From a virus: DNA of 38,312 bases. The stretch lies in IMG/VR virus record IMGVR_UViG_3300034092_001507, positions 1-38,312 of that record; one strand, given 5' to 3'. Shown here piece after piece: positions 2,020-34,563 of the stretch; within the stretch, counting starts at the first letter, position 1, and every line of letters starts with the position of its first letter. Under the pieces are notes generated by a model. That model saw only the letters and a list, made by a program, of their open reading frames with translations. It was not told the DNA's origin and ran no database searches. A program made the position numbers and the translations under genes.

Positions 2020-2048
2020 TTGCATTTGTCAGACCCCTGCGCTATAAT
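2020..2048 (+). promoter_or_regulatory. Promoter of the 2.0 kb small-gene operon (leaderless)
   Basis: TTGCAT (2020-2025), 17 bp, TATAAT (2043-2048). The -10 ends exactly 6 nt before the ATG at 2055, so the predicted first transcribed base is the start codon. No Shine-Dalgarno is present. Confidence 0.7.
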
Positions 2049-2054
2049 TAATAT

Positions 2055-2219
2055 ATGACCCAAACAATGAGAACGATTGACGAACTAGTCAATGAGATGT
2101 ATATGGACAATGAGCAACATCTCGAATACATGGAAAATATGAACGGTGGGGATTGTGATTGTGCAATTCACACTACCTTGAATACAATTGTCAAATACTG
2201 GTGGGATGAGGAGAACTGA
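2055..2219 (+). CDS. Small acidic hypothetical protein (54 aa)
   Basis: Starts MTQTMRTIDELVNEMY and ends WWDEEN. It is rich in Asp, Glu, Asn and Met, with a CDC motif near residue 34. The ATG is placed exactly where transcription from the TATAAT at 2043 should begin. Its stop overlaps the next start (ATGA), so the two are translationally coupled. Function unknown. Confidence 0.65.
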   Translation: MTQTMRTIDELVNEMYMDNEQHLEYMENMNGGDCDCAIHTTLNTIVKYWWDEEN

Positions 2220-2377
2220 TGCTAGGCTATGAAAGAGATGATTTAGATAACATGGTTCTTGCTATTGATTCTGCTTTAACTACCGTGAATCCTGACGATG
2301 ACCCCTGGTTACACAGAAACCTAACACAAGCCTCAGACTTCCTGTCAGGGCTATGGGCAGAAGGGTACTTTGACTAA
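2219..2377 (+). CDS. Small acidic hypothetical protein (52 aa)
   Basis: Begins MLGYERDDLDNMVLAID and ends LSGLWAEGYFD. The ATG overlaps the upstream TGA and its TAA overlaps the next ATG (TAATG), giving strong operon context for a real gene. Predicted short helical, acidic protein. No recognised family. Confidence 0.65.
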   Translation: MLGYERDDLDNMVLAIDSALTTVNPDDDPWLHRNLTQASDFLSGLWAEGYFD

Positions 2378-2616
2378 TGTGGACTAAGTTTACTTATCTT
2401 TGTACTGACTGTGATGCTCTTATAGAGATTACCGCATCAGTTGAGCCTCAGATTGATCCCGCCTGCATTTGCCATGCATCATCTCATGTAATCCTATTAA
2501 GCAAATGGGATGCTACTGTTACTCATGTAGATGAAGATCCAACCCCTGACTATGAGCCTGTGATTAAGGTCACACCCCGTGAAGTTGTAAAAATCAACAC
2601 TAACCCCTATAATTAA
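2377..2616 (+). CDS. Small Cys/His-containing hypothetical protein (79 aa)
   Basis: CTDC at residues 9-12 and CICH at 30-33 could form a Cys4 or Cys3His metal site in the N-terminal half. The C-terminal half is acidic and Pro-rich. Translationally coupled to the preceding gene by TAATG. The last codons overlap the -10 of the following gene. Function unknown. Confidence 0.75.
   Translation: MWTKFTYLCTDCDALIEITASVEPQIDPACICHASSHVILLSKWDATVTHVDEDPTPDYEPVIKVTPREVVKINTNPYN
2585..2613 (+). promoter_or_regulatory. Internal leaderless promoter
   Basis: TTGTAA (2585-2590), 17 bp, TATAAT (2608-2613), then TAATAT and the ATG at 2620. The 15-mer TATAATTAATATATG is identical to that at 2043-2057. It lies wholly inside the end of the previous gene. 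Confidence 0.6.
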
Positions 2617-2619
2617 TAT

Positions 2620-2775
2620 ATGGACCTAAACACATTTATCGAATACATCAAACTACATCTGATTAGTCTTGAACAAGACCTTGAAGAGAACCCTGCCTCT
2701 ATCCACGTGGTAGACATTGAGGGACAAATCTATGCTACTAAACATCTTTTGTCAGTGGCAGAGGGTAGAATATAA
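2620..2775 (+). CDS. Small hypothetical protein (51 aa)
   Basis: MDLNTFIEYIKLHLI... ends LLSVAEGRI. Predicted two-helix protein resembling small phage proteins of the form length-plus-library helix pairs, but no family is recognised. The start is fixed by the -10 six bases upstream. There is no Shine-Dalgarno. Confidence 0.65.
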   Translation: MDLNTFIEYIKLHLISLEQDLEENPASIHVVDIEGQIYATKHLLSVAEGRI

Positions 2776-2777
2776 CT

Positions 2778-3056
2778 ATGATGAACACACAACTAGACCC
2801 AAGACTACAAAAACTTGTTGACCTAGGGGAGTCAGGCACAGACATCCTACACGGTGAACTTAAAAACCTAATGCTAGAAGCAGAGAACGATTATATTGAG
2901 ATTGAGAAAGAAGAGCGTGAGGGTGGATACTCTGACGCAATGCTTTCTATGGACAGAACTAGAGCAGAAGGAAGAATGGACGCTCTTGTAGAAGTCTATG
3001 CCCTTACCTATCAACTAGCATTTGCTATCAATGACAGGATAAAGAACAATGAGTAA
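2778..3056 (+). CDS. Hypothetical helical acidic protein (92 aa)
   Basis: Almost entirely predicted helix, with many Glu, Asp and Arg residues (for example EIEKEEREGGYSDAM). ATG at 2778 or 2781. Its end overlaps the next gene by 8 nt, as in the rest of the operon. Function unknown. Confidence 0.75.
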   Translation: MMNTQLDPRLQKLVDLGESGTDILHGELKNLMLEAENDYIEIEKEEREGGYSDAMLSMDRTRAEGRMDALVEVYALTYQLAFAINDRIKNNE

Positions 3057-4735: not shown

Positions 4736-4803
4736 GATTACGATCAAACCTTTATTTTCCCCAGAATTAGATTACGAAGGACAAATTCTTTTCCCCAAAC
4801 CTT
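4736..4803 (+). repeat. Second pair of TTACGA...TTTTCCCC direct repeats, 34-bp period
   Basis: GATTACGA at 4736-4743 and 4770-4777 (34 bp apart), each followed by TTTTCCCC (4755-4762 and 4789-4796). CAAACCTTT and CCAAACCTTA are interleaved. A third single unit lies at 5031-5063. Same layout as 1954-2018. Confidence 0.7.
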
Positions 4804-4822
4804 ATACCATACAAACCTTTAT

Positions 4823-4851
4823 TTGTCAAACCTTAATATCAGGTGTATAAT
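4823..4851 (+). promoter_or_regulatory. Leaderless promoter of the 4.86 kb gene
   Basis: TTGTCA (4823-4828), 17 bp, TATAAT (4846-4851), then six bases and ATG at 4858. It is directly downstream of the paired 34-bp repeats. Confidence 0.75.
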
Positions 4852-4857
4852 GTATCT

Positions 4858-5046
4858 ATGAGCCCAAGACACTTTGCAGCATATCAACAAAGAGATCCTA
4901 AAGGCTATCAAGCATTCTCAGATAACATGTGGAATGGTTTTGTATCTATCACTAAGCATGTTCCTATAGTTAATAGGTTCTTCTCTTTCTCTCCCGCCGA
5001 GTTTCAGGTGGATCAAGAAACTGAAAATAAGATTACGAACGCCTAA
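4858..5046 (+). CDS. Small hypothetical protein (62 aa)
   Basis: MSPRHFAAYQQRDPKGYQAFSD... I choose ATG 4858 rather than GTG 4843 because the GTG lies inside the promoter, whereas ATG 4858 is where transcription should start. The C-terminal codons overlap the third GATTACGA repeat. Helical, unknown function. Confidence 0.65.
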   Translation: MSPRHFAAYQQRDPKGYQAFSDNMWNGFVSITKHVPIVNRFFSFSPAEFQVDQETENKITNA

Positions 5047-5195
5047 AAATTTTTCCCCAAACCTGGCCGTTTTTGCCAGGGGATAAAGAGATTATATACC
5101 AAACCACTAGTACTAAAACATATACAAACCTTTTATCCTGATTTTTAAATATTTATCAAACCTTTATATATTTTTATTACGATTTATCGACAATT

Positions 5196-5220
5196 TCTCC
5201 TGATTTTGGGAGATTTTTTT
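5196..5220 (+). terminator. Candidate intrinsic terminator
   Basis: TCTCC (5196-5200) and GGAGA (5209-5213) form a 5-bp stem followed immediately by seven T residues (5214-5220). The stem is short, so strength is uncertain. Confidence 0.45.
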
Positions 5221-5235
5221 ATGCATAAAATGGGC

Positions 5236-5264
5236 TTGACAAACCATAATTTATAGGTTATAAT
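5236..5264 (+). promoter_or_regulatory. Full-consensus promoter, P1 of a tandem pair
   Basis: TTGACA (5236-5241), 17 bp, TATAAT (5259-5264): a perfect sigma-70/SigA consensus. The only immediate frame is a 5-codon ORF at 5274, so it may produce an untranslated RNA or an origin transcript. Confidence 0.75.
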
Positions 5265-5287
5265 GCCCAAACCATGCATATAAAGGT

Positions 5288-5316
5288 TTGACAGATATAA
5301 AGGTTTGTGGTAAAAT
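5288..5316 (+). promoter_or_regulatory. Near-consensus promoter, P2 of a tandem pair
   Basis: TTGACA (5288-5293), 17 bp, TAAAAT (5311-5316), 52 bp after P1. Both -35 and spacer carry AAAGGTTTG repeats, so a protein binding these 9-mers would control it. Confidence 0.6.
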
Positions 5317-5454
5317 GCGGCTATAAAGGTTTGGAGATATGAAGGTTTGGCCGCTAGAGATTACGACCCCATCTATAAAAGGGCTCCCTAACCCACTATC
5401 CTCCACTTCACTCCACTTCTAGAATGTCTAACAACATAATCAGTAACATTTAAT

Positions 5455-5508
5455 TGTGGATAACATGTGGATAACTATGACATTTTTAGCCTATCAGGGT
5501 GTGGATAA
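5455..5508 (-). promoter_or_regulatory. Cluster of three perfect DnaA boxes
   Basis: TGTGGATAA (complement of TTATCCACA) occurs at 5455-5463, 5466-5474 and 5500-5508, all in the same orientation, with starts 11 and 34 bp apart. It lies next to an AT-rich tract, as in bacterial and plasmid origins. Confidence 0.65.
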
Positions 5509-5537
5509 CTATCAAACCATCATGCTATACTTGATAT

Positions 5538-5624
5538 ATGAAACCTTTCCTAATCATCATGCTTGGCCTATTCATATTTCTTAACTATATGGCCTACCTA
5601 CAACAGATAAGGATGACTGGATAA
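5538..5624 (+). CDS. Tiny membrane peptide (28 aa)
   Basis: MKPFLIIMLGLFIFLNYMAY... is one predicted membrane helix with a short polar tail. TATACT at 5526-5531 ends six bases before the ATG (leaderless pattern) and the stop couples by TAATG to the next gene. Function unknown. Confidence 0.55.
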   Translation: MKPFLIIMLGLFIFLNYMAYLQQIRMTG

Positions 5625-5731
5625 TGTTAGATGTCCTATGCTTTAACTGTGGTGGTATGTATCAAGTACCTTATGGGGTATCAAACCCTACATCCAAGTG
5701 TCCAAAATGCCAGGGTATCAAACCTCTTTAA
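5624..5731 (+). CDS. Zinc-ribbon mini-protein (35 aa)
   Basis: MLDVLCFNCGGMYQVPYGV... with CFNC at residues 6-9 and CPKC at 26-29: a minimal Cys4 zinc ribbon. TAATG-coupled to the membrane peptide. Its 3' end overlaps the convergent GIY-YIG-like gene by 14 bp. Confidence 0.65.
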   Translation: MLDVLCFNCGGMYQVPYGVSNPTSKCPKCQGIKPL

Positions 5732-6035
5732 TTGCTTTATTGACCATACGGATCAAGGCCCTACGAGTTATCTTTGAGGCATCAAAGGTCTCTGTGTATC
5801 CGCTTTGAGGCATATCTGCCTTATCCAGAAAATGTCCATATCTTTCCCTTAGTGTTCTTAGTACTAGGGTTTCGACCTTTCTTGCCTTATCCCGTTCGAA
5901 AAAATGCCAATACTTAATTAGTATCCAACCCTTGGTCCTATGGCTTGCAAACCTTCTTCCGCTTATATCTGATATACCTACCTTGACAGCCTTATGTAGT
6001 GGGCTGTATAGTATATATAAGACTGCTTCATCCAT
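5718..6035 (-). CDS. GIY-YIG / T5orf172-like nuclease-type protein
   Basis: 105 residues from the ATG at 6035. The N-terminus AVLYILYSPLHKAVKVGIS carries the family's Y...Y/KVG strands. It is followed by an Arg-rich segment (RRFASHRTKGW), a Glu in VETLVLRTLRERYG, and the GYTETF motif typical of T5orf172/Mug113 relatives. Such domains cut DNA in homing endonucleases, but many phage forms are uncharacterised. It is the only leftward gene in the left 11.7 kb, pointing to insertion of an autonomous unit. The upstream extension of the frame to 6119 is rejected because TATAAT lies six bases before this ATG. Confidence 0.7.
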   Translation of the reverse strand: MDEAVLYILYSPLHKAVKVGISDISGRRFASHRTKGWILIKYWHFFERDKARKVETLVLRTLRERYGHFLDKADMPQSGYTETFDASKITRRALIRMVNKAIKEV

Positions 6036-6041
6036 AGGTTC

Positions 6042-6047
6042 ATTATA
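6042..6047 (-). promoter_or_regulatory. Leaderless -10 element of the GIY-YIG-like gene
   Basis: TATAAT on the minus strand ends six bases before the ATG at 6035. No good -35. It lies immediately beside the divergent -35 TTGACA at 6049-6054, so the two promoters must compete for RNA polymerase. Confidence 0.55.
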
Positions 6048-6048
6048 C

Positions 6049-6077
6049 TTGACATACCGTGGCAAATTTGATATGAT
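6049..6077 (+). promoter_or_regulatory. Leaderless promoter of the 6.08 kb gene
   Basis: TTGACA (6049-6054), 17 bp, TATGAT (6072-6077), then six bases and the ATG at 6084. Confidence 0.65.
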
Positions 6078-6083
6078 TGGTTT

Positions 6084-6317
6084 ATGATTACTAAAAAAAA
6101 TAAGAAGCAAATGCACCAATACGAAGAGGATTTTGTCTTTGTCCTAGAAAACCTCAAAAATGATATCACTAGATATCTTCAGGTTGCCAAGTCTGAGGAT
6201 GTATCACATAATGATATTACCAGAACCATATCTTTGATTAATTGGACTGCCAGAACAGTTGCAGAAAATAGGGATGAGTTAGAGTTTAAGATTATGTACG
6301 CTAAGGAGCAGTCATGA
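6084..6317 (+). CDS. Hypothetical helical protein (77 aa)
   Basis: Basic N-terminus MITKKNKKQMHQYEED followed by mixed-charge helices. The start is set by the leaderless promoter. The stop overlaps the next ATG (ATGA). Function unknown. Confidence 0.75.
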   Translation: MITKKNKKQMHQYEEDFVFVLENLKNDITRYLQVAKSEDVSHNDITRTISLINWTARTVAENRDELEFKIMYAKEQS

Positions 6318-6529
6318 AAAGTTCACTTTGTGCTTATAAGCGTGGAGAGCCTTACTTTACCAGTTACCATTGGTGTAATGAATGCCCACCTTCTGATGAA
6401 TACCGTGCTCTTGAAAAGCAACAAAAACTAGATTGGGCTAAGGCCAATAAGGAAAGAGATGCTGCTTGGAAGACAAAGAATGCACGAAGGATCAAGCATG
6501 ACAAGTCATTGGCGGACAAGGGTTTCTAA
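6314..6529 (+). CDS. Small Cys-containing basic protein (71 aa)
   Basis: Three Cys in the first 25 residues (C6, then CNEC) could bind metal. The C-terminal half is Lys/Arg-rich (KTKNARRIKHDKSLADKG) and probably contacts nucleic acid. ATGA-coupled to its predecessor. A GCCCC/GGGGC stem (CCCCTGTGGGGC) follows at 6540-6550. Function unknown. Confidence 0.7.
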   Translation: MKSSLCAYKRGEPYFTSYHWCNECPPSDEYRALEKQQKLDWAKANKERDAAWKTKNARRIKHDKSLADKGF

Positions 6530-6596
6530 CCAATATTGCCCCTGTGGGGCATGTGGGGGTTTGTTACCTCTATTTTTCGCCGAACTCTAAACGTGA

Positions 6597-6602
6597 TATA
6601 AT
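6597..6602 (+). promoter_or_regulatory. Leaderless -10 element of the 6.6 kb gene
   Basis: TATAAT ends six bases before the ATG at 6609. The -35 position holds only TTTCGC. Confidence 0.5.
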
Positions 6603-6608
6603 AATTAG

Positions 6609-6734
6609 ATGGAAAAGTCTAAATGTTATTTTTGCGAAAAAGAGGCAACTCATTACGATATTGTCGTAAATCACGCTAACTGGATAGTCGCTGATGTGTG
6701 TATGACCCACCTATCTATGGGTCTTGTTTCCTAA
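6609..6734 (+). CDS. Zinc-binding mini-protein (41 aa)
   Basis: MEKSKCYFCEKEATHYDIV... with CYFC, then HANW and CMTH, a Cys/His pattern for one zinc ion resembling DUF7455-like half-domains. The start is fixed by the TATAAT six bases upstream, with no Shine-Dalgarno. Confidence 0.6.
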   Translation: MEKSKCYFCEKEATHYDIVVNHANWIVADVCMTHLSMGLVS

Positions 6735-6737
6735 GAC

Positions 6738-6766
6738 TTGACACTCATGCCCACATAGGGTATTAT
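6738..6766 (+). promoter_or_regulatory. Leaderless promoter of the 6.77 kb gene
   Basis: TTGACA (6738-6743), 17 bp, TATTAT (6761-6766), six bases, then ATG at 6773. It begins 4 bp after the previous stop codon. Confidence 0.7.
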
Positions 6767-6772
6767 TATAGT

Positions 6773-6916
6773 ATGACCAATCAAGAAATATCTGATCTAT
6801 TAAACCAGGAATCCTATCGTATTTGGGACACAACTAAGGTTATTAAGAACCAAGACTATCATGATGGCCTTGTTAAGGGTCTAAAAATGGCTGCTCAATA
6901 TGTGGCTAAACTATGA
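6773..6916 (+). CDS. Small hypothetical protein (47 aa)
   Basis: MTNQEISDLLNQESYRIWD..., an amphipathic helical protein. The frame is open further upstream to 6698, but that part covers the promoter, so the ATG at 6773 is chosen. ATGA-coupled to the next gene. Function unknown. Confidence 0.65.
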   Translation: MTNQEISDLLNQESYRIWDTTKVIKNQDYHDGLVKGLKMAAQYVAKL

Positions 6917-7122
6917 TTACTAACATGGAAATCCCAGATCCATTTCAAACCTTTGTAGCCAAGAAGTATGCTAACGCTAAGGGTGCTGTGTATGACTTCT
7001 TTAGTGGTGAATGGTCTTTTAGATGTTCTACATGTAAGGAAGACTTGTTTGCTCCCTCCCGCAAAATTATGACAAAAATTCGTTTATACCATACAAGAAA
7101 TGAGTGCCTAGGTGGATACTGA
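6913..7122 (+). CDS. Small zinc-finger-like protein (69 aa)
   Basis: CSTC at about residues 38-41 and HTRNEC near the C-terminus fit a C2HC-type zinc site. Preceded by an aromatic segment (YDFFSGEWSFR). ATGA overlap with the upstream gene. Function unknown. Confidence 0.7.
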   Translation: MITNMEIPDPFQTFVAKKYANAKGAVYDFFSGEWSFRCSTCKEDLFAPSRKIMTKIRLYHTRNECLGGY

Positions 7123-7234
7123 ACAAACCTTCGACCAAGAGTTTAGTGTTGAAGAGATTACGAACGCTATAGTTAATCAGGCTAAGGCTGAGGTCAAGTC
7201 TAAGTTTGGCAACAAGAAGAGGCATAGGCAATGA
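7112..7234 (+). CDS. Small hypothetical protein (40 aa, GTG start)
   Basis: VDTEQTFDQEFSVEEITNAIV... acidic first half and basic end (KSKFGNKKRHRQ). It overlaps the preceding gene by 11 nt and couples to the next through ATGA. The start codon is the least certain part. Confidence 0.5.
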   Translation: MDTEQTFDQEFSVEEITNAIVNQAKAEVKSKFGNKKRHRQ

Positions 7235-7332
7235 TCTGCAAAACCTGCGGGATGAACAAAGAAAACATTGAGTACTGGGATACCCATCAAACTATGAGTG
7301 ATTACAGGGTGTGGTGTGCCAAAAGAGTGTAG
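7231..7332 (+). CDS. Small Cys-containing peptide (33 aa)
   Basis: MICKTCGMNKENIEYW... with CKTC at residues 3-6 and a single later Cys. ATGA-coupled to the previous gene. It may be half of a zinc-ribbon unit. Function unknown. Confidence 0.5.
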   Translation: MICKTCGMNKENIEYWDTHQTMSDYRVWCAKRV

Positions 7333-7345
7333 TCATACTTGGTAT

Positions 7346-7417
7346 ATGCGTGAGAATGGTATACAATGTACTAAATGCTTAATTTTATGGGATAGGAGTA
7401 TGGATGAAAGAGCCTAA
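7346..7417 (+). CDS. Possible 23-aa Cys-pair peptide
   Basis: MRENGIQCTKCLILWDRSMDERA has one CxxC and follows a weak -10-like CATACT with the same six-base gap seen at leaderless genes. It is so short that translation is doubtful. It could be the remnant of a longer zinc-ribbon gene. Confidence 0.3.
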   Translation: MRENGIQCTKCLILWDRSMDERA

Positions 7418-7529
7418 GATAGCCCAAATGGACTGGCGTAGCCTTGGCTATTGGCCTGTATGGAAAGATGGAAAGAAAGTGTGGGTGCCTAAAGATGATA
7501 AATCATTCAACCAAGACAGAAAGAACTAA
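7404..7529 (+). CDS. Small Trp/Lys-rich protein (41 aa)
   Basis: MKEPKIAQMDWRSLGYWPVW... ends FNQDRKN. A clear ribosome site (AGGAG at 7395-7399) sits five bases before the ATG. It overlaps the start of the following gene by 35 nt in another frame. Function unknown. Confidence 0.6.
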   Translation: MKEPKIAQMDWRSLGYWPVWKDGKKVWVPKDDKSFNQDRKN

Positions 7530-7818
7530 GATACTTCCATTACGATGGATCGGTAATATTTCTGGAGAGTTTGCTGGGAATCATTTAGTTAAGTGTGTTA
7601 ATATGGATGAACATCAGGAGCATGGGTGGCAATATAAATACCACGCAAAAATGTGGAAGTATCTTAACAAACCTTACGAGTGGTGGGGAACCTATTACAC
7701 CATAGACATGGAGGCTTGGAAAAAAGAGTTGGATCAGATCAAAATTGATATGTCTGATTCAGGATGGGACGATTATGATGAATTTGGTAAAGCATATTGG
7801 GATAAGGATAAAGAATGA
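7495..7818 (+). CDS. Hypothetical protein rich in aromatic residues (107 aa)
   Basis: MINHSTKTERTKILPLRWIG... with HGWQYKYHAKMWKY and YEWWGTYYTID. I choose the ATG at 7495; the frame extends to 7444 but then overlaps the preceding gene deeply. Acidic C-terminus. ATGA-coupled to the next gene. No family recognised. Confidence 0.7.
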   Translation: MINHSTKTERTKILPLRWIGNISGEFAGNHLVKCVNMDEHQEHGWQYKYHAKMWKYLNKPYEWWGTYYTIDMEAWKKELDQIKIDMSDSGWDDYDEFGKAYWDKDKE

Positions 7819-7988
7819 GTATAGATGAAATGGTATTGAGAGAGGAGATTGCAAAGGCTATTGAGTCTCTTCCTATTGAAGAGTCTGTAACTAATGCAAT
7901 TGGTATGAGAATGCTTGCAGCAAAGATTGCAAGAGGAGAAGATAATTATATGACAAGTATGTTTGAAAGACAGGAGGACTTCGAATGA
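7815..7988 (+). CDS. Small acidic helical protein (57 aa)
   Basis: MSIDEMVLREEIAKAIESLP... mostly helical. ATGA overlaps at both ends place it firmly in the 7.5-8.5 kb translational chain. Function unknown. Confidence 0.65.
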   Translation: MSIDEMVLREEIAKAIESLPIEESVTNAIGMRMLAAKIARGEDNYMTSMFERQEDFE

Positions 7989-8074
7989 TTAGTGCACTAT
8001 TTTTAATTCCAGCATTTATTTTAGGGTATGCTGCCTGCTATTTTATTATGACTTATAATGTTAATCAAGATTGA
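7985..8074 (+). CDS. Tiny membrane peptide (29 aa)
   Basis: MISALFLIPAFILGYAACYF... one membrane helix and a short polar tail. ATGA-coupled to the upstream gene and overlapping the HAD gene by 17 nt. Function unknown. Confidence 0.6.
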   Translation: MISALFLIPAFILGYAACYFIMTYNVNQD

Positions 8075-8525
8075 TAACAGGCCAACCGCCTACATATTTG
8101 ATGTAGATGGTACTCTAGCCAATGTAGATCCCTACCTGCACCATGTTCGTGGCTCTAATAGGGACTACGATGCCTTTCATGAGGCTTCTATAGATGCCCT
8201 GCCAAATTTGGAAGTAGTTGAGATGTTAAATAATGCTGTTGCAGATCAGCATGCTATTCTTATTGTAACTTCTCGTAAAGATAAGTGGCGTGGGCTAACA
8301 TCTATGTGGCTTGCAAAAAATAATCTAAGGTCTCATGCTTTATTTATGAGATCAGACGAAGACAACAGACCAGACTATGAGGTTAAAAGAGATATACTTC
8401 ACAAGATTAATAATCATTGGAAAGTTCTTCATGCGGTAGATGACAACCCAAATGTTATCAGGTTATGGGAAGATAACCAAATTCCTACTACTAAGATTGG
8501 TACGTGGGATGGAGATAAGTCTTGA
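8058..8525 (+). CDS. HAD-superfamily phosphatase (polynucleotide kinase 3'-phosphatase-like)
   Basis: 155 residues. Motif I FDVDGTLA places the nucleophile at D15 and the acid/base at D17. Motif II is the Thr/Ser in IVTSRKDK near residue 72. Motif III/IV is the Lys region YEVKRDIL plus HAVDDNPNVI, giving acidic Mg ligands. This spacing and the RKDKWR segment match the phosphatase domain of T4 Pnkp and related phage proteins; the kinase half is absent. A role in DNA/RNA end repair or nucleotide salvage is an inference. The start overlaps the membrane-peptide gene. Confidence 0.8.
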   Translation: MLIKIDNRPTAYIFDVDGTLANVDPYLHHVRGSNRDYDAFHEASIDALPNLEVVEMLNNAVADQHAILIVTSRKDKWRGLTSMWLAKNNLRSHALFMRSDEDNRPDYEVKRDILHKINNHWKVLHAVDDNPNVIRLWEDNQIPTTKIGTWDGDKS

Positions 8526-8550
8526 CTTACAGAATAGAAAGTGGTATCAT
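8522..8550 (+). promoter_or_regulatory. Leaderless promoter of the 8.56 kb gene
   Basis: TTGACT (8522-8527), 17 bp, TATCAT (8545-8550), six bases, then the ATG at 8557. The -35 overlaps the stop of the HAD gene. Confidence 0.65.
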
Positions 8551-8556
8551 TAGTAT

Positions 8557-8691
8557 ATGAGCAAACGAATTAAAAAAGTATACAAGTGTAATGAATGTGA
8601 AACTATGATCACTATTGTTACAAAGGTTCATGAACTTCCAGAATCAATTATTTGTCCATGTGACAATATATCAGAAAGTCAGGGGCAGTAA
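8557..8691 (+). CDS. Zinc-ribbon mini-protein (44 aa)
   Basis: MSKRIKKVYKCNECETMI... with CNEC at residues 11-14 and CPC at 33-35: another minimal zinc ribbon with a basic head. Leaderless start; TAATG couples it to the next gene. Confidence 0.65.
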   Translation: MSKRIKKVYKCNECETMITIVTKVHELPESIICPCDNISESQGQ

Positions 8692-8843
8692 TGAAGAAGT
8701 CTAACAACAAAGTATCTCAGCACAAGATCAAAAGAGCAAACAAAAACAAAAAAAGAATACAGGCTAAGCCATACCTATCAAGGTTTGAGCGTAAGCAAAA
8801 GTCAATTAGAGAAGGAATCATATTTTCTGCTTTAAACTCTTAA
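8691..8843 (+). CDS. Very basic small protein (50 aa)
   Basis: MKKSNNKVSQHKIKRANKNK..., with Lys and Arg making up about a third of the chain, suggests RNA or DNA binding. TAATG-coupled to the zinc-ribbon gene. Function unknown. Confidence 0.6.
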   Translation: MKKSNNKVSQHKIKRANKNKKRIQAKPYLSRFERKQKSIREGIIFSALNS

Positions 8844-8866
8844 CTAAATAAAGATTAGGAAGTGCT

Positions 8867-9010
8867 ATGGTTGATTACGATAAGTTAAAAAAAATTCCAG
8901 ATGATTTAAAGCATCACATAATTAAAGAACATATGAAAACCTACTACCATTGGACAGTTGGGTTTTTATGCTTTTTAATTGGAACATTTTTTGGATTACT
9001 AATTAAATAA
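8867..9010 (+). CDS. Small single-pass membrane protein (47 aa)
   Basis: A charged N-terminal half (MVDYDKLKKIPDDLKHH) precedes one membrane helix (WTVGFLCFLIGTFFGLLI). Ribosome site TAGGAAG lies upstream of the ATG. It ends just before a tRNA. Function unknown. Confidence 0.65.
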   Translation: MVDYDKLKKIPDDLKHHIIKEHMKTYYHWTVGFLCFLIGTFFGLLIK

Positions 9011-9016
9011 GGTCTA

Positions 9017-9091
9017 GCACCAGTAGCCAAGTTGGTTAAGGCACCGAACTCATAATTCGGCTATTCGTAGGTTCAAGTCCTACCTGGTGTA
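9017..9091 (+). tRNA. tRNA with anticodon CAU (elongator Met, or Ile2)
   Basis: Acceptor GCACCAG / CTGGTGT pairs with one terminal G-U. The anticodon stem CCGAA/TTCGG encloses CTCATAA. The paired first base argues against an initiator. Methionine is preferred because a separate tRNA-Ile(UAU) is present, but a lysidine-type Ile2 cannot be excluded by eye. Confidence 0.9.
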
Positions 9092-9092
9092 C

Positions 9093-9121
9093 TTGACATA
9101 CCGTGCAGAATTCGGTATACT
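9093..9121 (+). promoter_or_regulatory. Promoter of the secreted-protein gene
   Basis: TTGACA (9093-9098), 17 bp, TATACT (9116-9121), starting two bases after the tRNA. The leader carries AAAGGA before the ATG at 9151. Confidence 0.75.
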
Positions 9122-9150
9122 TATAACATAACTACTAACAAAGGATTAAA

Positions 9151-9927
9151 ATGAAGAAAATTGCTTTCATACTATCACTACTTGTATTTTCTGGGGGTTT
9201 TACTCCAGCACATGCAAATGAAATTTCAAAGTATGTTAACTTTATTACACCAATTACCACAACTCAGTATGAACTTCCTTCTGCACAAGGCATATCAGAA
9301 AGAAAAGAATATGAGTTTTTAATTAGATTCTCCGATCCTGTAGGAGAGGTTAGCGTTATTAATTTAGGCCTCTACGATGCAAGCAATAAAGAAATTAGTT
9401 TTGATCAACATATGAACCTAACATTTTGGCGAGAAGCATACTCTGTAGTAGAAAGCAAAGAGTTCAGAATCTATGGATATGAGTCAAAAGAAATTAAACT
9501 TCCACTAACATTAAAAATTCAAGTAAAGTTTCTTGACTCTGCTGGAAAGTTAAGTCTGCATCAGTCATATCCAATGAATTTTATACCTAATCAGTCTGAT
9601 GTCATTAAGGCTGCTGAAGAGGCAAAAGCCAAGGCAGAGGCAGAGGCAAAAGCAATTGCAGATGCTGCTGCAAAAGCAGCAATTGATGCAAAGATTGTTG
9701 CTGATGCAAAGGCTGCAGGAGATGCTGCTGCTGCTTTTTGGAACAAGGCTGCCGAAGAACTAAAGGCTAAGCAAGAAGAGCAATTAAGGATTGCGCTTGA
9801 GGCTGCTATTAAGAAAGCGATTGTTGGTAAATCATGCAGTAAGTTAAGACAAAAGCAGGTGTATGGTGGAGCAAAGTTCACATGCGTTAAGTCTGGAAAG
9901 AAGTTGGTTTGGAAACGAACCTACTAA
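9151..9927 (+). CDS. Secreted Ala/Lys-rich coiled-coil protein
   Basis: 258 residues. A Sec signal peptide (MKKIAFILSLLVF...TPAHA) is followed by a beta-rich domain to about 150, an Ala/Lys/Glu coiled coil (about 150-220), and a C-terminal module with two Cys (C229 and C245 region, ending KSGKKLVWKRTY). That last module resembles the repeated Cys/Lys/Trp tails of surface proteins in Nanopelagicales actinobacteria, which I recall as frequent there. It may have been taken from a host and displayed on the host surface, for example for superinfection exclusion (inference). It has its own promoter and ribosome site. Confidence 0.7.
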   Translation: MKKIAFILSLLVFSGGFTPAHANEISKYVNFITPITTTQYELPSAQGISERKEYEFLIRFSDPVGEVSVINLGLYDASNKEISFDQHMNLTFWREAYSVVESKEFRIYGYESKEIKLPLTLKIQVKFLDSAGKLSLHQSYPMNFIPNQSDVIKAAEEAKAKAEAEAKAIADAAAKAAIDAKIVADAKAAGDAAAAFWNKAAEELKAKQEEQLRIALEAAIKKAIVGKSCSKLRQKQVYGGAKFTCVKSGKKLVWKRTY

Positions 9928-9962
9928 ATATTTCCTAAAATCCTGCGGGATATAAAAGGTTT

Positions 9963-10036
9963 ACATCTGTAACTCAGTTGGTTAGAGTACCTGCCTTATA
10001 TGCAGAGAGCCGAAGGTTCAAGTCCTTCCAGATGTA
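9963..10036 (+). tRNA. tRNA-Ile (anticodon UAU, reads AUA)
   Basis: Acceptor ACATCTG/CAGATGT pairs perfectly. D-stem ACTC/GAGT. The anticodon loop CTTATAT is closed by CCTGC/GCAGA (outer pair C-A mismatched), giving UAU at 9997-9999. T-arm GGTTCAAGTCC. Confidence 0.85.
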
Positions 10037-10040
10037 CGAT

Positions 10041-10111
10041 GCGGATGTTGCATATTGGTAGTGCCTCTGCCTTCCAAGCAGAAGGGGTGAGTTCGATTCT
10101 CATCATCCGCT
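10041..10111 (+). tRNA. tRNA-Gly (anticodon UCC)
   Basis: Acceptor GCGGATG/CATCCGC, perfect seven pairs. The anticodon stem TCTGC/GCAGA encloses CTTCCAA with UCC. T-arm includes GTTCGATTC. 71 nt with a short D-loop. Confidence 0.93.
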
Positions 10112-10115
10112 CCAA

Positions 10116-10188
10116 GTCTCCATCGTCTAGTGGCCCAGGACTCTGCCCTTTCACGGCAGCAACACGGATTCGAATTCCGTTGGAGATG
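10116..10188 (+). tRNA. tRNA-Glu (anticodon UUC)
   Basis: Acceptor GTCTCCA/TGGAGAT (one G-U). The anticodon stem CTGCC/GGCAG encloses CTTTCAC with UUC. T-arm contains ATTCGAATTC. Confidence 0.93.
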
Positions 10189-10192
10189 CTTT

Positions 10193-10265
10193 ACCTCTGT
10201 AGTTCAGTGGACAGAACGATGGACTTCTAAGCCATGCGTCGCAAGTTCGATTCTTGCCAGGGGTA
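10193..10265 (+). tRNA. tRNA-Arg (anticodon UCU)
   Basis: Acceptor ACCTCTG/CAGGGGT (one G-U). Anticodon loop CTTCTAA with UCU, stem ATGGA/GCCAT with one inner mismatch. It reads AGA, a codon expected to be common in an AT-rich phage. Confidence 0.9.
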
Positions 10266-10335
10266 CTTTATGATATAATATATTTACCTGCCCAAATGGG
10301 GGGTAATTAACTTATTCGCTTGAAAGGGGAATAAC

Positions 10336-10752: not shown

Positions 10753-10854
10753 TATAATAGATAACATTCCGATATAAGACTTTAAAAGGTTTTACAACGG
10801 ATGCTCCTATGAGTGGAGAGTTAGCAGGAGTTGAATCTTCGTGGCTAATAGACC

Positions 10855-10879
10855 TGAGCAGTCGTCTATAAACTGCTCA
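10855..10879 (+). repeat. CTGAGCA/TGCTCA stem-loop element, copy 4
   Basis: TGAGCA (10855-10860) / TGCTCA (10874-10879), 13-nt loop ending AAAC. It lies in the 260-bp gap after Hsp20 and directly upstream of the TATAAT that may drive the structured RNA at 10904. Confidence 0.65.
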
Positions 10880-10894
10880 TTTCCTATGCTACAA

Positions 10895-10984
10895 TATAAT
10901 TGTCCCACACAGGACCTTAGTGATGGATTAGTTACCCATTGGATAGAGACCGTGGCGCAAGTCAGGTGAATTGCCTGTGTGGGG
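10895..10984 (+). ncRNA. Candidate structured RNA with three-way-junction fold
   Basis: TATAAT at 10895-10900 predicts a start near 10907. CCCACACAGG (10904-10913) pairs perfectly with CCTGTGTGGG (10974-10983). Inside, ACCT (10914-10917) pairs with AGGT (10964-10967), ATGG (10923-10926) with CCAT (10936-10939), and GAC (10948-10950) with GTC (10961-10963). No riboswitch or ncRNA family is recognised. It immediately precedes the HNH gene. Confidence 0.5.
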
Positions 10985-11012
10985 CCTAACATTTGGCGGT
11001 ATAATAATATCA

Positions 11013-11279
11013 ATGACTGACAAAGAGTTGGACCATTATAATAAGCAGCAGTATAAGAAGATGCTTGCTAAGATAAAAGAGGATTCTGGCTGTGTAGATT
11101 GTGGTGTTGGTAACCATATAATCCTAGACTTTGATCACATAAGAGACAAGAAATACAACATATCAAGAATGATCCATGATGGTTTTTCATGGAAGGCTAT
11201 AAAAAAAGAGATTGAAAAATGCGAAGTAGTTTGTGCCAACTGCCATAGGATAAGAACTCATAACCGTCTTGCTAGTTAA
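11013..11279 (+). CDS. HNH endonuclease-like protein
   Basis: 88 residues from ATG 11013; the in-frame extension upstream would run through the RNA stem. C27xxC30 and C74xxC77 form the structural zinc site. LDFDH (D41-H42) and the ANCH segment (N76, H78) supply HNH catalytic residues. The fold IILDFDHIRDKK...CEVVCANCHRIRT is the classic small phage HNH. It could be a free-standing homing nuclease or a packaging-associated HNH, but no terminase is nearby. TATAAT at 11000-11005 gives a nearly leaderless start. Confidence 0.85.
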   Translation: MTDKELDHYNKQQYKKMLAKIKEDSGCVDCGVGNHIILDFDHIRDKKYNISRMIHDGFSWKAIKKEIEKCEVVCANCHRIRTHNRLAS

Positions 11280-11285
11280 ATATGG

Positions 11286-11291
11286 TATACT
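11286..11291 (+). promoter_or_regulatory. Leaderless -10 element of the 11.3 kb gene
   Basis: TATACT ends six bases before the ATG at 11298. No recognisable -35. Confidence 0.45.
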
Positions 11292-11297
11292 GATAGT

Positions 11298-11615
11298 ATG
11301 AGTGATGATTCAATGATGCCAACAAGTACATACCAAGGATGCGACTGTGAGACCTGTAAACAACTCAATGTAGACTGTCCAGACTGTCCAGTGTGCTCTT
11401 CAGATAACGACTCAGAGGTTGCTATGGCTATGTATGACTCATCAATAGGTAAGGCTGATCCATGTTGGGAAGGCTACGTTCAAAGAGGAATGAAGCCAGG
11501 AGCAGATGGTAATCCAGTTCCAAACTGCATACCTGTTACAAAAACAGAGTCAATATTCTTTTCAGCAAAAGATTACTCAAAACAAACAAGAGTTACCAAT
11601 CTATTTAAGGACTAA
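11298..11615 (+). CDS. Cys-rich hypothetical protein (105 aa)
   Basis: Cysteines cluster at residues 15-33 (CDCETC, then CPDCPVC), likely binding one or two metal ions. A second conserved segment, DPCWEGYVQRGMKPG...VPNC, resembles a short motif found at the ends of several phage head or scaffold-type proteins. The role is unknown. No Shine-Dalgarno; the -10 is six bases from the ATG. Confidence 0.75.
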   Translation: MSDDSMMPTSTYQGCDCETCKQLNVDCPDCPVCSSDNDSEVAMAMYDSSIGKADPCWEGYVQRGMKPGADGNPVPNCIPVTKTESIFFSAKDYSKQTRVTNLFKD

Positions 11616-11617
11616 TT

Positions 11618-15011: not shown

Positions 15012-15021
15012 AATTCTTTAA

Positions 15022-15591
15022 TTAGATACTTTTCTTGGCAAGCATCTCATAATACCTATCATAATGAGCAGACAGATCTACCCAAGACACATCCATATCT
15101 TCATAATATGGAGATGTTTTACTTGAAACAAGGTACTCTTGACCAGGAATATCCTCTAAAACCTGAATATAGTCTTCTTTTGACTTAACTCGTAAACCAA
15201 TATAGTCTCCTAAAAATTTACAAACATCGTAAGGCCTTTCAATCAAAGTATTGTAGTCTATAAAGACATCAGCATGCTCTGTCATATAATCAAAGAAATA
15301 GTTATATCCAGTTATATTCGTTAAGGCTCTTTCGTGTTTATGCTCTTCCCAGTCAAAGTCTTTTATTCGGTTAACTGCGTGATGCTTTGACATTGTGAAT
15401 CCTGATTTTAAAGTTTCTTTTGGATCTCTTATTATTGTGATTACCTTTTTATCCCCAGACCATCTTGGAAAATGTGTTTTTTTAATTTCAAATCCTGTTA
15501 ATTGCTTTAAATAACGGTGCAAAAAATGTGATCCAGTTCTTGGATAGGTGATTAGCAAAAAGTTATCGTCGAATTGTTTATTTCCTAGCAT
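15022..15591 (-). CDS. Sulfotransferase-like protein 2
   Basis: 189 residues from ATG 15591, chosen because TATACT lies six bases upstream; the frame continues to 15741 but that crosses the divergent promoter. The phosphosulfate loop is LLITYPRTGSHFLHRYL (12-28) and the 3'-phosphate motif is TIIRDPKETLKSG (53-65). Shorter than typical sulfotransferases (about 250-300), so the C-terminal cap may be reduced. Divergent from a 2OG oxygenase gene. Confidence 0.8.
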   Translation of the reverse strand: MLGNKQFDDNFLLITYPRTGSHFLHRYLKQLTGFEIKKTHFPRWSGDKKVITIIRDPKETLKSGFTMSKHHAVNRIKDFDWEEHKHERALTNITGYNYFFDYMTEHADVFIDYNTLIERPYDVCKFLGDYIGLRVKSKEDYIQVLEDIPGQEYLVSSKTSPYYEDMDVSWVDLSAHYDRYYEMLAKKSI

Positions 15592-15597
15592 ATATAT

Positions 15598-15620
15598 AGT
15601 ATACCATAGCATGGTATAAT
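15598..15620. promoter_or_regulatory. Overlapping divergent -10 elements within a palindrome
   Basis: TATACCAT-AGC-ATGGTATA (15600-15618) is a perfect 8-bp inverted repeat. It contains or touches the leftward -10 TATACT (15603-15598) and the rightward -10 TATAAT (15615-15620). RNA polymerase or one dimeric regulator can occupy it, not both. Confidence 0.6.
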
Positions 15621-16391: not shown

Positions 16392-16691
16392 CTACTTTAC
16401 TTGGTTAGTTGTCTTGCCTCCGCCAGATGACTTCTTTGCAGGAGCCTTCTTTGCGGTCTTCTTAACAACCTTTGCAGACTTAACTGCTGCATCTACCTCA
16501 TCTACTGAAGGCATCTTTCCAAATGCAGTATCTGAAGGGTTGGCTGCTCTCAATACAACGGGCACAAGTGCTCCAAGTAGTGAGTATGCTAGTGTCTGTG
16601 GATCTGTAACTCCAGATGCATACATTGCTGTTGCTGCTCCAAGAACTGATCTTCCGTATGACGCTAGTGCTGCTTTAATTTGTTCATTCAT
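16392..16691 (-). CDS. Holin-like membrane protein with Lys/Gly-rich tail
   Basis: 99 residues. SYGRSVLGAATAMYASGV (about 12-29) and a second hydrophobic helix around LAYSLLGALVPVVLRAA (35-51) are followed by NPSDTAFG, a combination common in small actinophage membrane proteins. The C-terminus KKTAKKAPAKKSSGGGK is very basic and repeats the tail of the endolysin (25992). A holin is therefore plausible, but two better-placed candidates are at 35945 and 36232. Excellent ribosome site AGGAGG upstream. Confidence 0.65.
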   Translation of the reverse strand: MNEQIKAALASYGRSVLGAATAMYASGVTDPQTLAYSLLGALVPVVLRAANPSDTAFGKMPSVDEVDAAVKSAKVVKKTAKKAPAKKSSGGGKTTNQVK

Positions 16692-16851
16692 TTTTTCCTC
16701 CTAGGAATTGTGTTGCTTGACTATAATGTAAATCACACAGATCAACTATTCTACTTTCAGAACTTGCCCAAATCTGCGTACTTTCGTCCTCGCACAACTC
16801 TTCCTCACACATAAACATGTTGAGGTTTTTAGTATGCTTTAGGGCGATCAT
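16684..16851 (-). CDS. Small Cys/acidic protein (55 aa)
   Basis: MIALKHTKNLNMFMCEEELC... with CEEELC, a later CDLH and an acidic middle. The ATG overlaps the previous stop as TAATG and the end overlaps the holin-like start by 8 nt, so it belongs to the operon. It may bind metal. It is nearly hidden because both ends overlap neighbours. Confidence 0.6.
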   Translation of the reverse strand: MIALKHTKNLNMFMCEEELCEDESTQIWASSESRIVDLCDLHYSQATQFLGGKNE

Positions 16852-17276
16852 TACTCTATTCTATCATAGTCTTCTGGTAGCAGTTTCTTTAGTTCTTTGT
16901 ATGCCCCAGAAATTTTCTTCATTGCGTTATAGTTTGGCTCAGCACCCATAAGGTCCCCATAAGTATCAAAATATAATATCTCAGGCTCTACATCACTAAC
17001 AAACTTATTTAATGATGACTGGACATCATCTATATATTGGTAAGCCCAATCTCTTGAGTCTGAAATAAATTTTAAGAAAGCCTCCTGATCCAGATTGCTC
17101 CTATTTTTATTTATTTCTTGCAACTCTGTCAACTTTTCTGACACTATTGTTTTATCTAGGTGTGCTTTTATCAACTCTAATGTTACTGAAGATATCTTAA
17201 GCCTTAGTTTAATGTTTTTATAAACCAAAAAGAAAAATACAAAAATAAAAATTACAAATGCAAAAAAATCAAACAT
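16851..17276 (-). CDS. Membrane-anchored phage protein
   Basis: 141 residues from ATG 17276 (the longer frame overlaps its neighbour). One N-terminal membrane helix (MFDFFAFVIFIFVFFFLVY) then a charged cytoplasmic domain. The segment FLKFISDSRDWAYQYIDDVQ resembles a conserved stretch in phage proteins of unknown role. TAATG leads into the next small gene. Confidence 0.75.
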   Translation of the reverse strand: MFDFFAFVIFIFVFFFLVYKNIKLRLKISSVTLELIKAHLDKTIVSEKLTELQEINKNRSNLDQEAFLKFISDSRDWAYQYIDDVQSSLNKFVSDVEPEILYFDTYGDLMGAEPNYNAMKKISGAYKELKKLLPEDYDRIE

Positions 17277-32734: not shown

Positions 32735-33389
32735 AAAAGTTCCTAACTTTCTCTTCAATTATACCATCTACTTTAAATACTATATCAAACATCGCTGAAT
32801 ACCTTTTTATTTTGCCAAACCTATGGTCAACCATATGAGGGCCAACTCTCTTAAATTTAAAGGGTATAAAGTCTGGCTCTAAATATATTAATTCTTTATC
32901 TATCTTTTTATGAACTGATGAGTCTGGGCTTATGACAAAAGGAGAGTCCTCTTGTGGAGTTTCATAAAAGACCTCAACGTCTAAATCTATATACCATGGT
33001 GCGTAAAACTTAAAGACATCATCAAAACATTCTTTGTCTTTTGCCATTTTAAAGTCTGTGTTATAGTATTGCCTCATCCAGGGTCTGTCAATATTTCTTA
33101 GCCTTGTAGATGTCTCAAGCAAAAAGAACTCCGCATGGTTTCTTTGTCTAAGCCTAACAACACCATTTTCTATACTTACTAAAGTTGGTGCTGGGTAGAG
33201 TGCCTGAACATATGTGTTGATTGGTTTAATTACACTGTCTTTATATTTGCCCTTGGCTACAGTATCAAACCTAACCCACCTATCTGGAAGCCTTGACTTT
33301 AAACTTAGATCAGAAAAAACGGGATCTTTAGTCTTGTACCATATATCAAAGTCATCAGTGATATTGTTTAAAATTGATGGGTATTCCAC
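32706..33389 (-). CDS. Hypothetical phage protein, possible third family member
   Basis: 227 residues, GTG start at 33389 after GGAG. IWYKTKDPVFSD, LPDRWVRF, FYAPWYIDLDVEVFYETP and FIPFKFKRVGPHMVDHRFG share the aromatic style, position and probable fold of the two proteins downstream but are too diverged for firm grouping by eye. TATAAT (minus, 33420-33425) is close to the tRNA-Asn end. Confidence 0.7.
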   Translation of the reverse strand: MEYPSILNNITDDFDIWYKTKDPVFSDLSLKSRLPDRWVRFDTVAKGKYKDSVIKPINTYVQALYPAPTLVSIENGVVRLRQRNHAEFFLLETSTRLRNIDRPWMRQYYNTDFKMAKDKECFDDVFKFYAPWYIDLDVEVFYETPQEDSPFVISPDSSVHKKIDKELIYLEPDFIPFKFKRVGPHMVDHRFGKIKRYSAMFDIVFKVDGIIEEKVRNFYEQDQVLPI

Positions 33390-33444
33390 GCTGCTCCATT
33401 CTTCTCAATTACTAAAACAATTATACACCATATAACTTACTTTG

Positions 33445-33517
33445 CTGGGCTGGCAGGTATCGATCCTGCGACATCCGAATTAACAGTTCGGCACTCTACC
33501 ATCTGAGTTACAGCCCA
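33445..33517 (-). tRNA. tRNA-Asn (anticodon GUU)
   Basis: Minus strand. Acceptor TGGGCTG/CAGCCCA with discriminator G. Anticodon stem CCGAA/TTCGG encloses CTGTTAA. D-arm ACTC...GAGT. It sits between two leftward protein genes. Confidence 0.93.
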
Positions 33518-33524
33518 ATCCTAA

Positions 33525-34304
33525 TTAAGGAAGCAATACTCTTGTTCTTCCGTTAGGAACAAATGAGATCTTGTCGTACATCGCTGCTGCTAAAGTAGCA
33601 GTTGCAGATGTTGTCATAAAAACCTGCTTTGTATTGACACCAGTTAAAGATACAACCTTTAATGATCCAGCAGACAATAGGATATCTGTGTACTCATTGA
33701 CCCCATCTGTCTTTTGTCTTGACAGCGTTGTTACGGCTGTTACATTTGGCAAGCATGCTGGATACTCAAGACTTCCAACCTTGTTTGTGTTTCCAGTAGA
33801 GGCATACACCTTTACTCCAGACGAAGACAGTAAATCTACATTCACAATCGTCTTTGCCTTTAGAACATTCCTGTCAGTGTGATGTGTTGGCATGCACCCA
33901 GTAGACGTATTAGACGCTGCACCTGATCCACGAGCAAATGATACAGACTTGATATTCTTTGTCTTTAGGTTTGCAATAACCCAAGACAAAGCAGTGTTAA
34001 AATCATCTCCATTTACGATTCCAGTTGGAGTAGTTGCAGCCTTAATTAGAATAAGGTTTGCGGTTGGATTTGCAGTTCTTGCAACCTCTGCCATGATAGT
34101 TCCATGCATTGACTCTGTTGTTTTACCAGACTGAGGAACAGAGCAGTTGGATGTGTATAGGCAAACTACTTCACGGCTTCCTGAAATAAAAGACTCGTTA
34201 AAATTGCTATCAATAATTACAACAGAACCAACTGTGTTTGCATTTGCATTAATTGGAACTACTACTGAAAACAGTACTGCGATTAGTGCGATTAACTTTT
34301 TCAT
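33525..34304 (-). CDS. Secreted subtilase-like (S8) protein
   Basis: 259 residues from ATG 34304, giving a Sec signal peptide MKKLIALIAVLFSVVVPINANA. Subtilisin order is visible: D32 in VVIIDSNF, H67 in MHGTIMAEVA (HGT motif), oxyanion Asn in YASTGNTNKVGSLEYPA, and S233 in FMTTSATATLAAAM (GTSxATP-like). The usual DTG and GTSMAxP are altered, so activity is not certain. Mature size is small and no prodomain is seen. It may act outside the host or on the virion. tRNA-Asn follows 7 bp later. Confidence 0.75.
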   Translation of the reverse strand: MKKLIALIAVLFSVVVPINANANTVGSVVIIDSNFNESFISGSREVVCLYTSNCSVPQSGKTTESMHGTIMAEVARTANPTANLILIKAATTPTGIVNGDDFNTALSWVIANLKTKNIKSVSFARGSGAASNTSTGCMPTHHTDRNVLKAKTIVNVDLLSSSGVKVYASTGNTNKVGSLEYPACLPNVTAVTTLSRQKTDGVNEYTDILLSAGSLKVVSLTGVNTKQVFMTTSATATLAAAMYDKISFVPNGRTRVLLP

Positions 34305-34306
34305 AT

Positions 34307-34528
34307 TTATATACCCTTTATCTTGATTACTAGTTGACATGGGTCGCCACCTGCTTCCCACTCTTGTTGCTCTTCTTCACTCATATAAGGATCGCCTTCA
34401 TGAGTATTACAGAACGGTTCTGTTATCCATCCCCGTTCAATTCCGTTTTCAAGCCAGATCTCAAACTCATTAAAATCTGCCTCTGTATTTTGAATATCTT
34501 TTAAGATTTCTTCAAATTCTTCGCTCAT
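34307..34528 (-). CDS. Small acidic hypothetical protein (73 aa)
   Basis: MSEEFEEILKDIQNTEADFNEFE, then GWITEPFCNTHEGDPYMSEEE and GDPCQLVI. The FCxTHEG(D)P segment with a later Cys recurs in actinophage proteins and could bind metal. The start is fixed by a leaderless promoter; the end is 2 bp from the subtilase start. Confidence 0.75.
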   Translation of the reverse strand: MSEEFEEILKDIQNTEADFNEFEIWLENGIERGWITEPFCNTHEGDPYMSEEEQQEWEAGGDPCQLVIKIKGI

Positions 34529-34534
34529 ATATAA

Positions 34535-34563
34535 AGTGTATCCTATTCTTGTTTGGATGTCAA
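34535..34563 (-). promoter_or_regulatory. Leaderless promoter of the 34.5 kb gene
   Basis: Minus strand TTGACA (34563-34558), 17 bp, TACACT (34540-34535), six bases, ATG at 34528. It is embedded in the end of SGNH paralogue 3. Confidence 0.75.

Follow-up and report, generated by a model that had tools for sequence, protein, structure and literature searches.

Predicted leaderless transcription units for small genes in the accessory arm of an actinophage related to Stanwilliamsviridae

In mycobacteria, an RTG at +1 has been reported to be both necessary and sufficient for leaderless initiation (PMC4633059). The mycobacterial leaderless genes (Shell et al. 2015, PMC4633059) are like the genes treated here, which lie on a complete IMG/VR virus record, IMGVR_UViG_3300034092_001507 (38,312 bases at 37% GC, as a whole called the window in the following), and in which a TANNNT promoter word ends exactly six nucleotides (nt) before an ATG: they share the composition and spacing of the -10 element, the lack of an enrichment of Shine-Dalgarno (SD) words, the RTG start and the small size of the proteins. 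Unlike them, the mycobacterial genes belong to a host chromosome and were studied by RNA-seq and ribosome profiling, whereas here a phage clade and inference from sequence are concerned. In Streptomyces avermitilis, 22.2% of the mRNAs have a 5' untranslated region of less than 9 nt (PMC8780764), and like here this short class stands beside a leadered class, there mostly of 30-39 nt, and AUG is preferred; these data are bacterial and measured, and the leadered mode of the phage relatives seems shorter, about 21-28 nt. Leaderless promoters have also been predicted for the Cluster O mycobacteriophages of the Corndog group (PMC4351075), where PL1, PR2 and the "similarly organized" PL2 resemble those described here and a divergent pair occurs, but three promoters are named there, whereas in the phages related to the window 56 protein families with at least three members have the arrangement. 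The leaderless genes of lambda and P2 (named in PMC4633059) are phage-borne as well, but they are isolated genes, whereas here the arrangement is clade-wide. The leaderless start as such is thus known in actinobacteria, and it is the scale, with dozens of genes, and the conservation that look unusual here. Lactococcus cremoris belongs to another phylum. Its leaders are either shorter than 5 nt or about 40 nt long, with a gap between, and there the 5' ends were measured (PMC10986495). Among the literature matches listed, which leave subscription journals largely uncovered, none concerned, by its title or the start of its abstract, leaderless genes of Stanwilliamsviridae or of Nanopelagicales phages.

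At all twelve starts that a sequence-only reading of the window had named (2055, 2620, 4858, 5538, 6084, 6609, 6773, 8557 and 11298 on the plus strand, and 6035, 15591 and 34528 on the minus strand), TANNNT-N6-ATG was confirmed letter for letter, followed by open frames of 28-189 amino acids. The -10 is TATAAT in five of the twelve and weakest at 34528, where TACACT has 4/6 matches. Six starts (2620, 4858, 6084, 6773, 8557 and 34528) have a -35 with at least 4/6 matches at a 17-nt spacer, and the count of seven good -35 elements given before was slightly generous, because 2055 has only 3/6 matches at 17 nt and 5538 has its 4/6 at a spacer of 18 nt. A TGn extended -10 is present in half of them (5538, 6084, 6609, 8557, 11298 and 15591). 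No SD-like word precedes eleven of the starts, and the single one at 34528 comes from reading as such an AGGA inside the gene's own promoter. The further claim that the arrangement is used even within other genes is correct for 2620, 8557 and 34528, where the promoter lies partly over the 3' end of the preceding open reading frame (ORF).

The best reading of these starts, to which a probability of about 0.88 can be given, is that they are leaderless transcription units that would be read by a SigA-like polymerase of the host. In a sigma-70 promoter 6 nt lie between the end of the -10 element and +1, which is why the A of the ATG would be the first transcribed base: a host-type sigma-70/SigA promoter (a TATAAT that is preceded by TTGACA at 17 nt or extended by TGn) would set +1 on this A, the first codon of the mRNA would be the start codon, and initiation would proceed without SD pairing, as in actinobacterial leaderless mRNAs. 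The 5' end of the mRNA, the sigma factor and the ribosome mechanism are deduced here from the DNA letters. The promoter consensus points to SigA dependence, and the host polymerase may be responsible because of this consensus and because sigma-70 region 4 (PF04545, the only region sought) was above the cut-off in none of 12 kin records, which may be fragments. The phage would use the leaderless mode mainly for small or accessory genes of its arms, and SD-led mRNAs elsewhere. As an interpretation, the "design rule" of leaderless starts that had been proposed is supported, but it is one of two modes and not a universal rule, as SD-led genes coexist with the leaderless ones.

The spacing was followed in 166 related IMG/VR loci (about 2.6 Mb) from three viral scans (6 of 6, the best 80 of 411 and the best 80 of 147), which are best matches, some of them overlapping, and not a random sample, and in which identical contexts were counted once. 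TATAAT-N6-ATG occurs there in 459 placements, a count that also took in the window as well as one locus excised from the window, while the remaining spacings between 0 and 39 nt have 23-85 placements each, and 86% of the 6-nt placements have a frame that is open for at least 40 amino acids. Grouped by protein, the 6-nt spacing accounts for 121 families, of which 56 have at least three members, whereas the other spacings from 0 to 30 nt give 2-16 such families each, and the sharp peak at 6 nt that the sequence-only reading had proposed to look for in related phages is therefore present. With stricter promoters, 77 families have a leader of 0 nt, 15 a leader of 1 nt, and 1-6 families fall on each position from 2 to 11, while the leaders of strong promoters form a second, broad mode at about 21-28 nt. 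In the family-weighted profile of the 56 families, a TTGAC-like -35, a TG at -15/-14, the TATAAT, which is the selection criterion itself, and six mostly A/T bases precede the ATG, with a T at -1 in 70%. RNA polymerase prefers a pyrimidine-purine start, and the T at -1 provides a start of this kind. These distributions also bear on a closely related alternative, according to which transcription begins 1-3 nt away from the A and the 6 nt are only approximate, resulting in tiny leaders or in mRNAs that lack the A. A spacing of 7 nt is indeed found in 18 of the 334 ortholog contexts described below, in all 29 contexts of the start at 11013 and in the 15 families with strict promoters, but the peak at 6 nt far exceeds those at 5, 7 and 8 nt and the T at -1 also fits a start on the A, which makes such a near-leaderless mode quite unlikely.

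A leaderless start on the A agrees also with the orthologs. For the twelve starts, the 334 distinct contexts consist of 250 at 6 nt, 18 at 7 nt, 3 at 5 or 8 nt, 18 with an SD and 45 with neither, and some of the printed examples of the last group have a near-miss -10 such as GATAAT. None of the 250 contexts that keep the 6-nt spacing has an SD, and in the SD-led control genes 119, 764, 9151 and 10336 an SD is found in 115 of 125 contexts and the 6-nt spacing in none. With 54 families pooled, mismatches at the three codon positions downstream of the ATG were 0.127/0.082/0.305, and on its upstream side the profile was flat; this codon periodicity, beginning at the ATG, argues indirectly that translation starts at these ATGs. 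Upstream of the ATG, these families are conserved at the -35, at the extended -10 and at -1; positions -12, -11 and -7 carry no weight, since the selection of sites had fixed them, and -10 to -8 were restricted by that selection. It could be thought that the ATGs are reached by polycistronic mRNA from upstream promoters and that the -10 words serve something else, as the units 2620, 8557 and 34528 overlap the upstream gene and as 18 of the 334 contexts have an SD instead. The absence of an SD from all 250 contexts that have the spacing, and the onset of periodic substitution at the ATG, make this very unlikely.

In the window alone, the 6-nt signal of the proposed leaderless units becomes visible only when the sites are filtered for -10 strength and for an open frame. 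With at least 5/6 matches in the -10 and a frame of at least 28 amino acids, 14 sites were found, namely eleven of the twelve named starts (without 34528) and 2778, 16851(-) and 22006(-), while 200 dinucleotide shuffles of the window averaged 1.46 such sites, with at most 5, and never 14, in any of them. With frames of at least 40 amino acids, and ATG and GTG starts taken together, 13 sites lie at 6 nt, compared to 2.95 per spacing and a maximum of 6 (Poisson P 1.3e-5, which like the Poisson values below treats positions as independent). That the spacing is a by-product of AT-rich sequence, with chance TANNNT words from TATATATG-like strings, could be argued from the 37% GC, from the unpeaked TANNNT before unfiltered ATGs and from a 7-nt excess in P-SSM2, which means that AT-rich phages can show spacing excesses, but this is scarcely tenable as no shuffle reaches the window count, as there is no 6-nt excess in the parts used of the AT-rich T4, P-SSM2, HTVC008M and a crAss-like phage (or of a Stenotrophomonas phage) and as the spacing is conserved across orthologs; the explanation is refuted in general and may still account for individual sites, for example 22006, a probably spurious site within a longer ORF.

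The leaderless arrangement is not confined to the window. With a -10 of at least 5/6 matches, the 6-nt peak was found in the window, in three relatives of 103, 112 and 109 kb (G001, G002 and G003) and in Samisti12, Yaboi and Forrest, which are cultured Streptomyces phages of two subfamilies (Poisson P 7.4e-5 to 1.8e-9); in the GC-rich actinophages Dewdrop, Jollymon, Appa, Martha, BrownCNA and D29, strong TANNNT words are too few to tell. In Samisti12, 16 of 205 annotated coding sequence (CDS) starts have the 6-nt spacing, with a background of 1.8 per spacing and a maximum of 9 at 24 nt, and an SD precedes none of these 16 vs 111 of the 189 others; the right-hand terminal-repeat copies and the last CDS (21 CDS) were left out. 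At the Samisti12 starts 28580, 31436 and 116329 the spacing is kept in the Forrest orthologs at protein identities of 53%, 32% and 24%; from this comparison, pairs internal to longer genes (36334, 47281 and 57981 of Samisti12) were excluded. The arms of three freshwater kin genomes contain 15, 24 and 20 sites (background 2.9-3.9), and the cores of Samisti12 and Yaboi 7 and 10 (background 1.7 and 2.0), where the core reaches from RNR to terL with boundaries set by the analyst. The 6-nt starts of Samisti12 include those of structural-region genes, for example that of the capsid maturation protease. By eye, several leaderless starts at 26180-45591 of Samisti12 have -35-like TTTGCT, TTTGCA or TTTTGC instead of TTGACA, which suggests another promoter class in the structural region.

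Several points weigh against the leaderless reading. In the window, unfiltered ATGs have 48 TANNNT words at 6 nt and 29-51 at other spacings and thus no peak, with only TATAAT being mildly peaked (5 vs 0-3 elsewhere). With a looser -10 (4/6), the peak is weak in G001 (P 0.011) and G003 (P 0.0028), and the cores of the three freshwater kin genomes have only 3, 4 and 2 sites, which is near the background of 2.0-2.8. In the cyanophage control P-SSM2 (1-50000), strong -10 words are in excess at a distance of 7 nt from ATG/GTG frames (11 vs a mean of 3.45; maximum of 9 at spacings outside 5-7). Two kin records have sub-threshold matches to sigma region 4. Among the units themselves, 5538 encodes just 28 amino acids, 34528 combines its weak -10 with the lack of any ortholog start in the related loci, and two others keep the 6-nt TANNNT poorly: 2055 in 26 of 57 contexts (4 at 7 nt, 7 with an SD) and 6773 in 8 of 18. 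In the four printed exceptions of 2055 the -10 fails at the first base only, and in three of four printed exceptions of 6773 a GATACT lies near the place of the -10.

If the units are leaderless, each consists of about 36 bp of promoter plus the ORF, and genes of this small size could pass singly from one arm to another with no ribosome-binding leader to carry along. Terminator-insulated cassettes were considered and rejected, since few units directly follow a hairpin and there is no enrichment (0.009 vs 0.007). It is unlikely, though conceivable, that there is a two-tier programme with leaderless arms and an SD-led core, the balance of which the phage would shift via ribosomes or initiation factors as a timing or takeover switch. 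At 11743-12513, beside the cluster, a homolog of the 16S rRNA C1402 methylase RsmI is encoded, with TIGR00096 as the best model (80.4 bits, cut-off 167.9 bits), and, speculatively, in the species of the window this protein could play such a role. It has 12 matches in the related loci, mostly locus pairs on one contig, and close copies among these loci only in the nearest kin of the window, plus one at 25% identity. As a general cofactor the RsmI-like protein was rejected, with its few independent copies and a score below the curated RsmI cut-off.

With regard to the phage itself, the window maps, in reversed orientation, onto the right part of G001, where ten of its units (4858 to 15591) recur at 92476-103209 with identical upstream letters and the protein of 15591 has a 100% identical copy. 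The gene order is common to G001-G003 and the Streptomyces phage Samisti12 (Stanwilliamsviridae), with an ordered core of RNR, portal, protease, capsid, TMP, helicase, primase, DnaE, RecA, Cas4, RuvC and terL, and the protein identities to Samisti12 are 52-54% for terL, 43-44% for the capsid and 27% for RNR. Judged by gene order and homologous core genes, the phage is in all likelihood a relative of Stanwilliamsviridae, which does not imply a placement at the family level, and the match to the right part of G001 together with the collinearity of G001-G003 and Samisti12 identifies the window as the putative accessory arm of an actinophage of the 103-112 kb size class. The window itself has, of the Samisti12 genes sought, only those for DUF932 (52%) and WhiB (33%), and a comparison of its bases 1-25000 with 50,697 phage records gave no near match. 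Besides WhiB and the DUF932 protein, a PNKP-type phosphatase and Hsp20 are encoded in the window, as well as seven tRNAs. Phages of freshwater with whiB genes are described in PMC10202952 and PMC6802176, and by this literature a freshwater actinobacterial host is suggested, for example 'Ca. Nanopelagicales'. We infer host and habitat in this way. The WhiB gene was taken as the marker of an actinobacterial host, and a single scan of genome contigs for a host link returned three loci, all of them non-actinobacterial.

The predicted leaderless units on the plus strand begin with 2055 (2043..2219; weak -35 TTGCAT, TATAAT at 2043-2048, N6 and ATG; 54 amino acids) and 2620 (2585..2775; -35 TTGTAA, TATAAT at 2608-2613 within the end of the upstream ORF; 51 amino acids), which keeps the 6-nt spacing in 41 of 65 ortholog contexts, with 7 nt in 11 and an SD in 5. 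In 4858 (4823..5046; 62 amino acids; 19 of 20 contexts at 6 nt) the -10 is TATAAT and the -35 TTGTCA overlaps a CAAACCTT repeat, and the short 5538 (5526..5624; TGC-TATACT) keeps the spacing in 12 of 16 contexts, three others having an SD. The minus-strand unit 6035 (5718..6047; TATAAT at 6047-6042; 105 amino acids), with the spacing in 47 of 48 contexts and a T5orf172/endonuclease-like product (Pfam match below the cut-off), is divergent from 6084 (6049..6317; -35 TTGACA, TGA-TATGAT; 77 amino acids; 2 of 2 contexts). A CxxC motif is encoded in 6609 (6597..6734; TGA-TATAAT; 41 amino acids; 47 of 54 contexts) and in 8557 (8522..8691; TGG-TATCAT; 44 amino acids; 41 of 46), the -35 TTGACT of the latter lying over the stop of 8058-8525, and between them is 6773 (6738..6916; -35 TTGACA, -10 TATTAT; 47 amino acids). 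The series continues with 11298 (11286..11615; TGG-TATACT; 105 amino acids; 5 of 6 contexts) and, on the minus strand, with 15591 (15022..15603; TGG-TATACT; 189 amino acids with a sulfotransferase domain; 2 of 2) and the least supported unit 34528 (34307..34563; -35 TTGACA, -10 TACACT; 73 amino acids). Absent from the sequence-only reading, the start at 11013 (11000..11279, plus strand; TATAAT, 7 nt, ATG; 88 amino acids; 29 of 29 contexts at 7 nt) is probably a further unit. Two sites are ambiguous: 2778 (2766..3056, plus strand; TAGAAT, 6 nt, ATG) keeps the 6-nt spacing in 28 of 46 contexts, and an SD-like word, in the window GAGGG, precedes the ATG in all of these 28, and 16851 (16684..16863, minus strand; TAGAAT, 6 nt, ATG) overlaps the upstream stop, making translational coupling a possible alternative, and has 14 of 15 contexts at 6 nt with no SD.

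Around these units, some repeats were observed. CAAACCTT occurs in 20 copies in the window vs 2.32 expected, ten of them at 4745-5349 in both orientations, and adjoining this cluster are three TTATCCACA words on the minus strand (5463, 5474 and 5508), which we take to be the DnaA-box consensus; the triplet by the cluster is found also in G001, G002 and G003 with somewhat different spacing, and 4745-5510 is a candidate replication origin. The -35 boxes of the 4858 unit (4823-4834) and of a promoter-like site at 5288 (5283-5293) overlap CAAACCTT/AAGGTTTG repeats, which is why these repeats could also be operators. ATTACGA is found 12 times in the window vs 2.36 expected, nine times within 4737-8880 on the plus strand. 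The -35 block CTTGACATACCGTG is identical at 6048-6061, before the leaderless 6084, and at 9092-9105, before the SD-led 9151. The sulfotransferase-like gene 15591(-) and a divergent plus-strand gene that has a TATAAT and a longer leader have between them, at 15598-15661, the inverted repeat TATACCAT-GCT-ATGGTATA (minus strand).

Leaderless initiation has usually been studied in bacteria or on single phage genes, and a clade with tens of conserved, predicted leaderless families and with cultured cousins in Streptomyces would be a directly testable system. There is also a use for annotation, as leaderless genes may escape gene callers based on codon usage or length; a simple codon-usage gene caller recovered three of the twelve named starts. 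The signature of a -10, 6 nt and an ATG can call start codons and very small genes.

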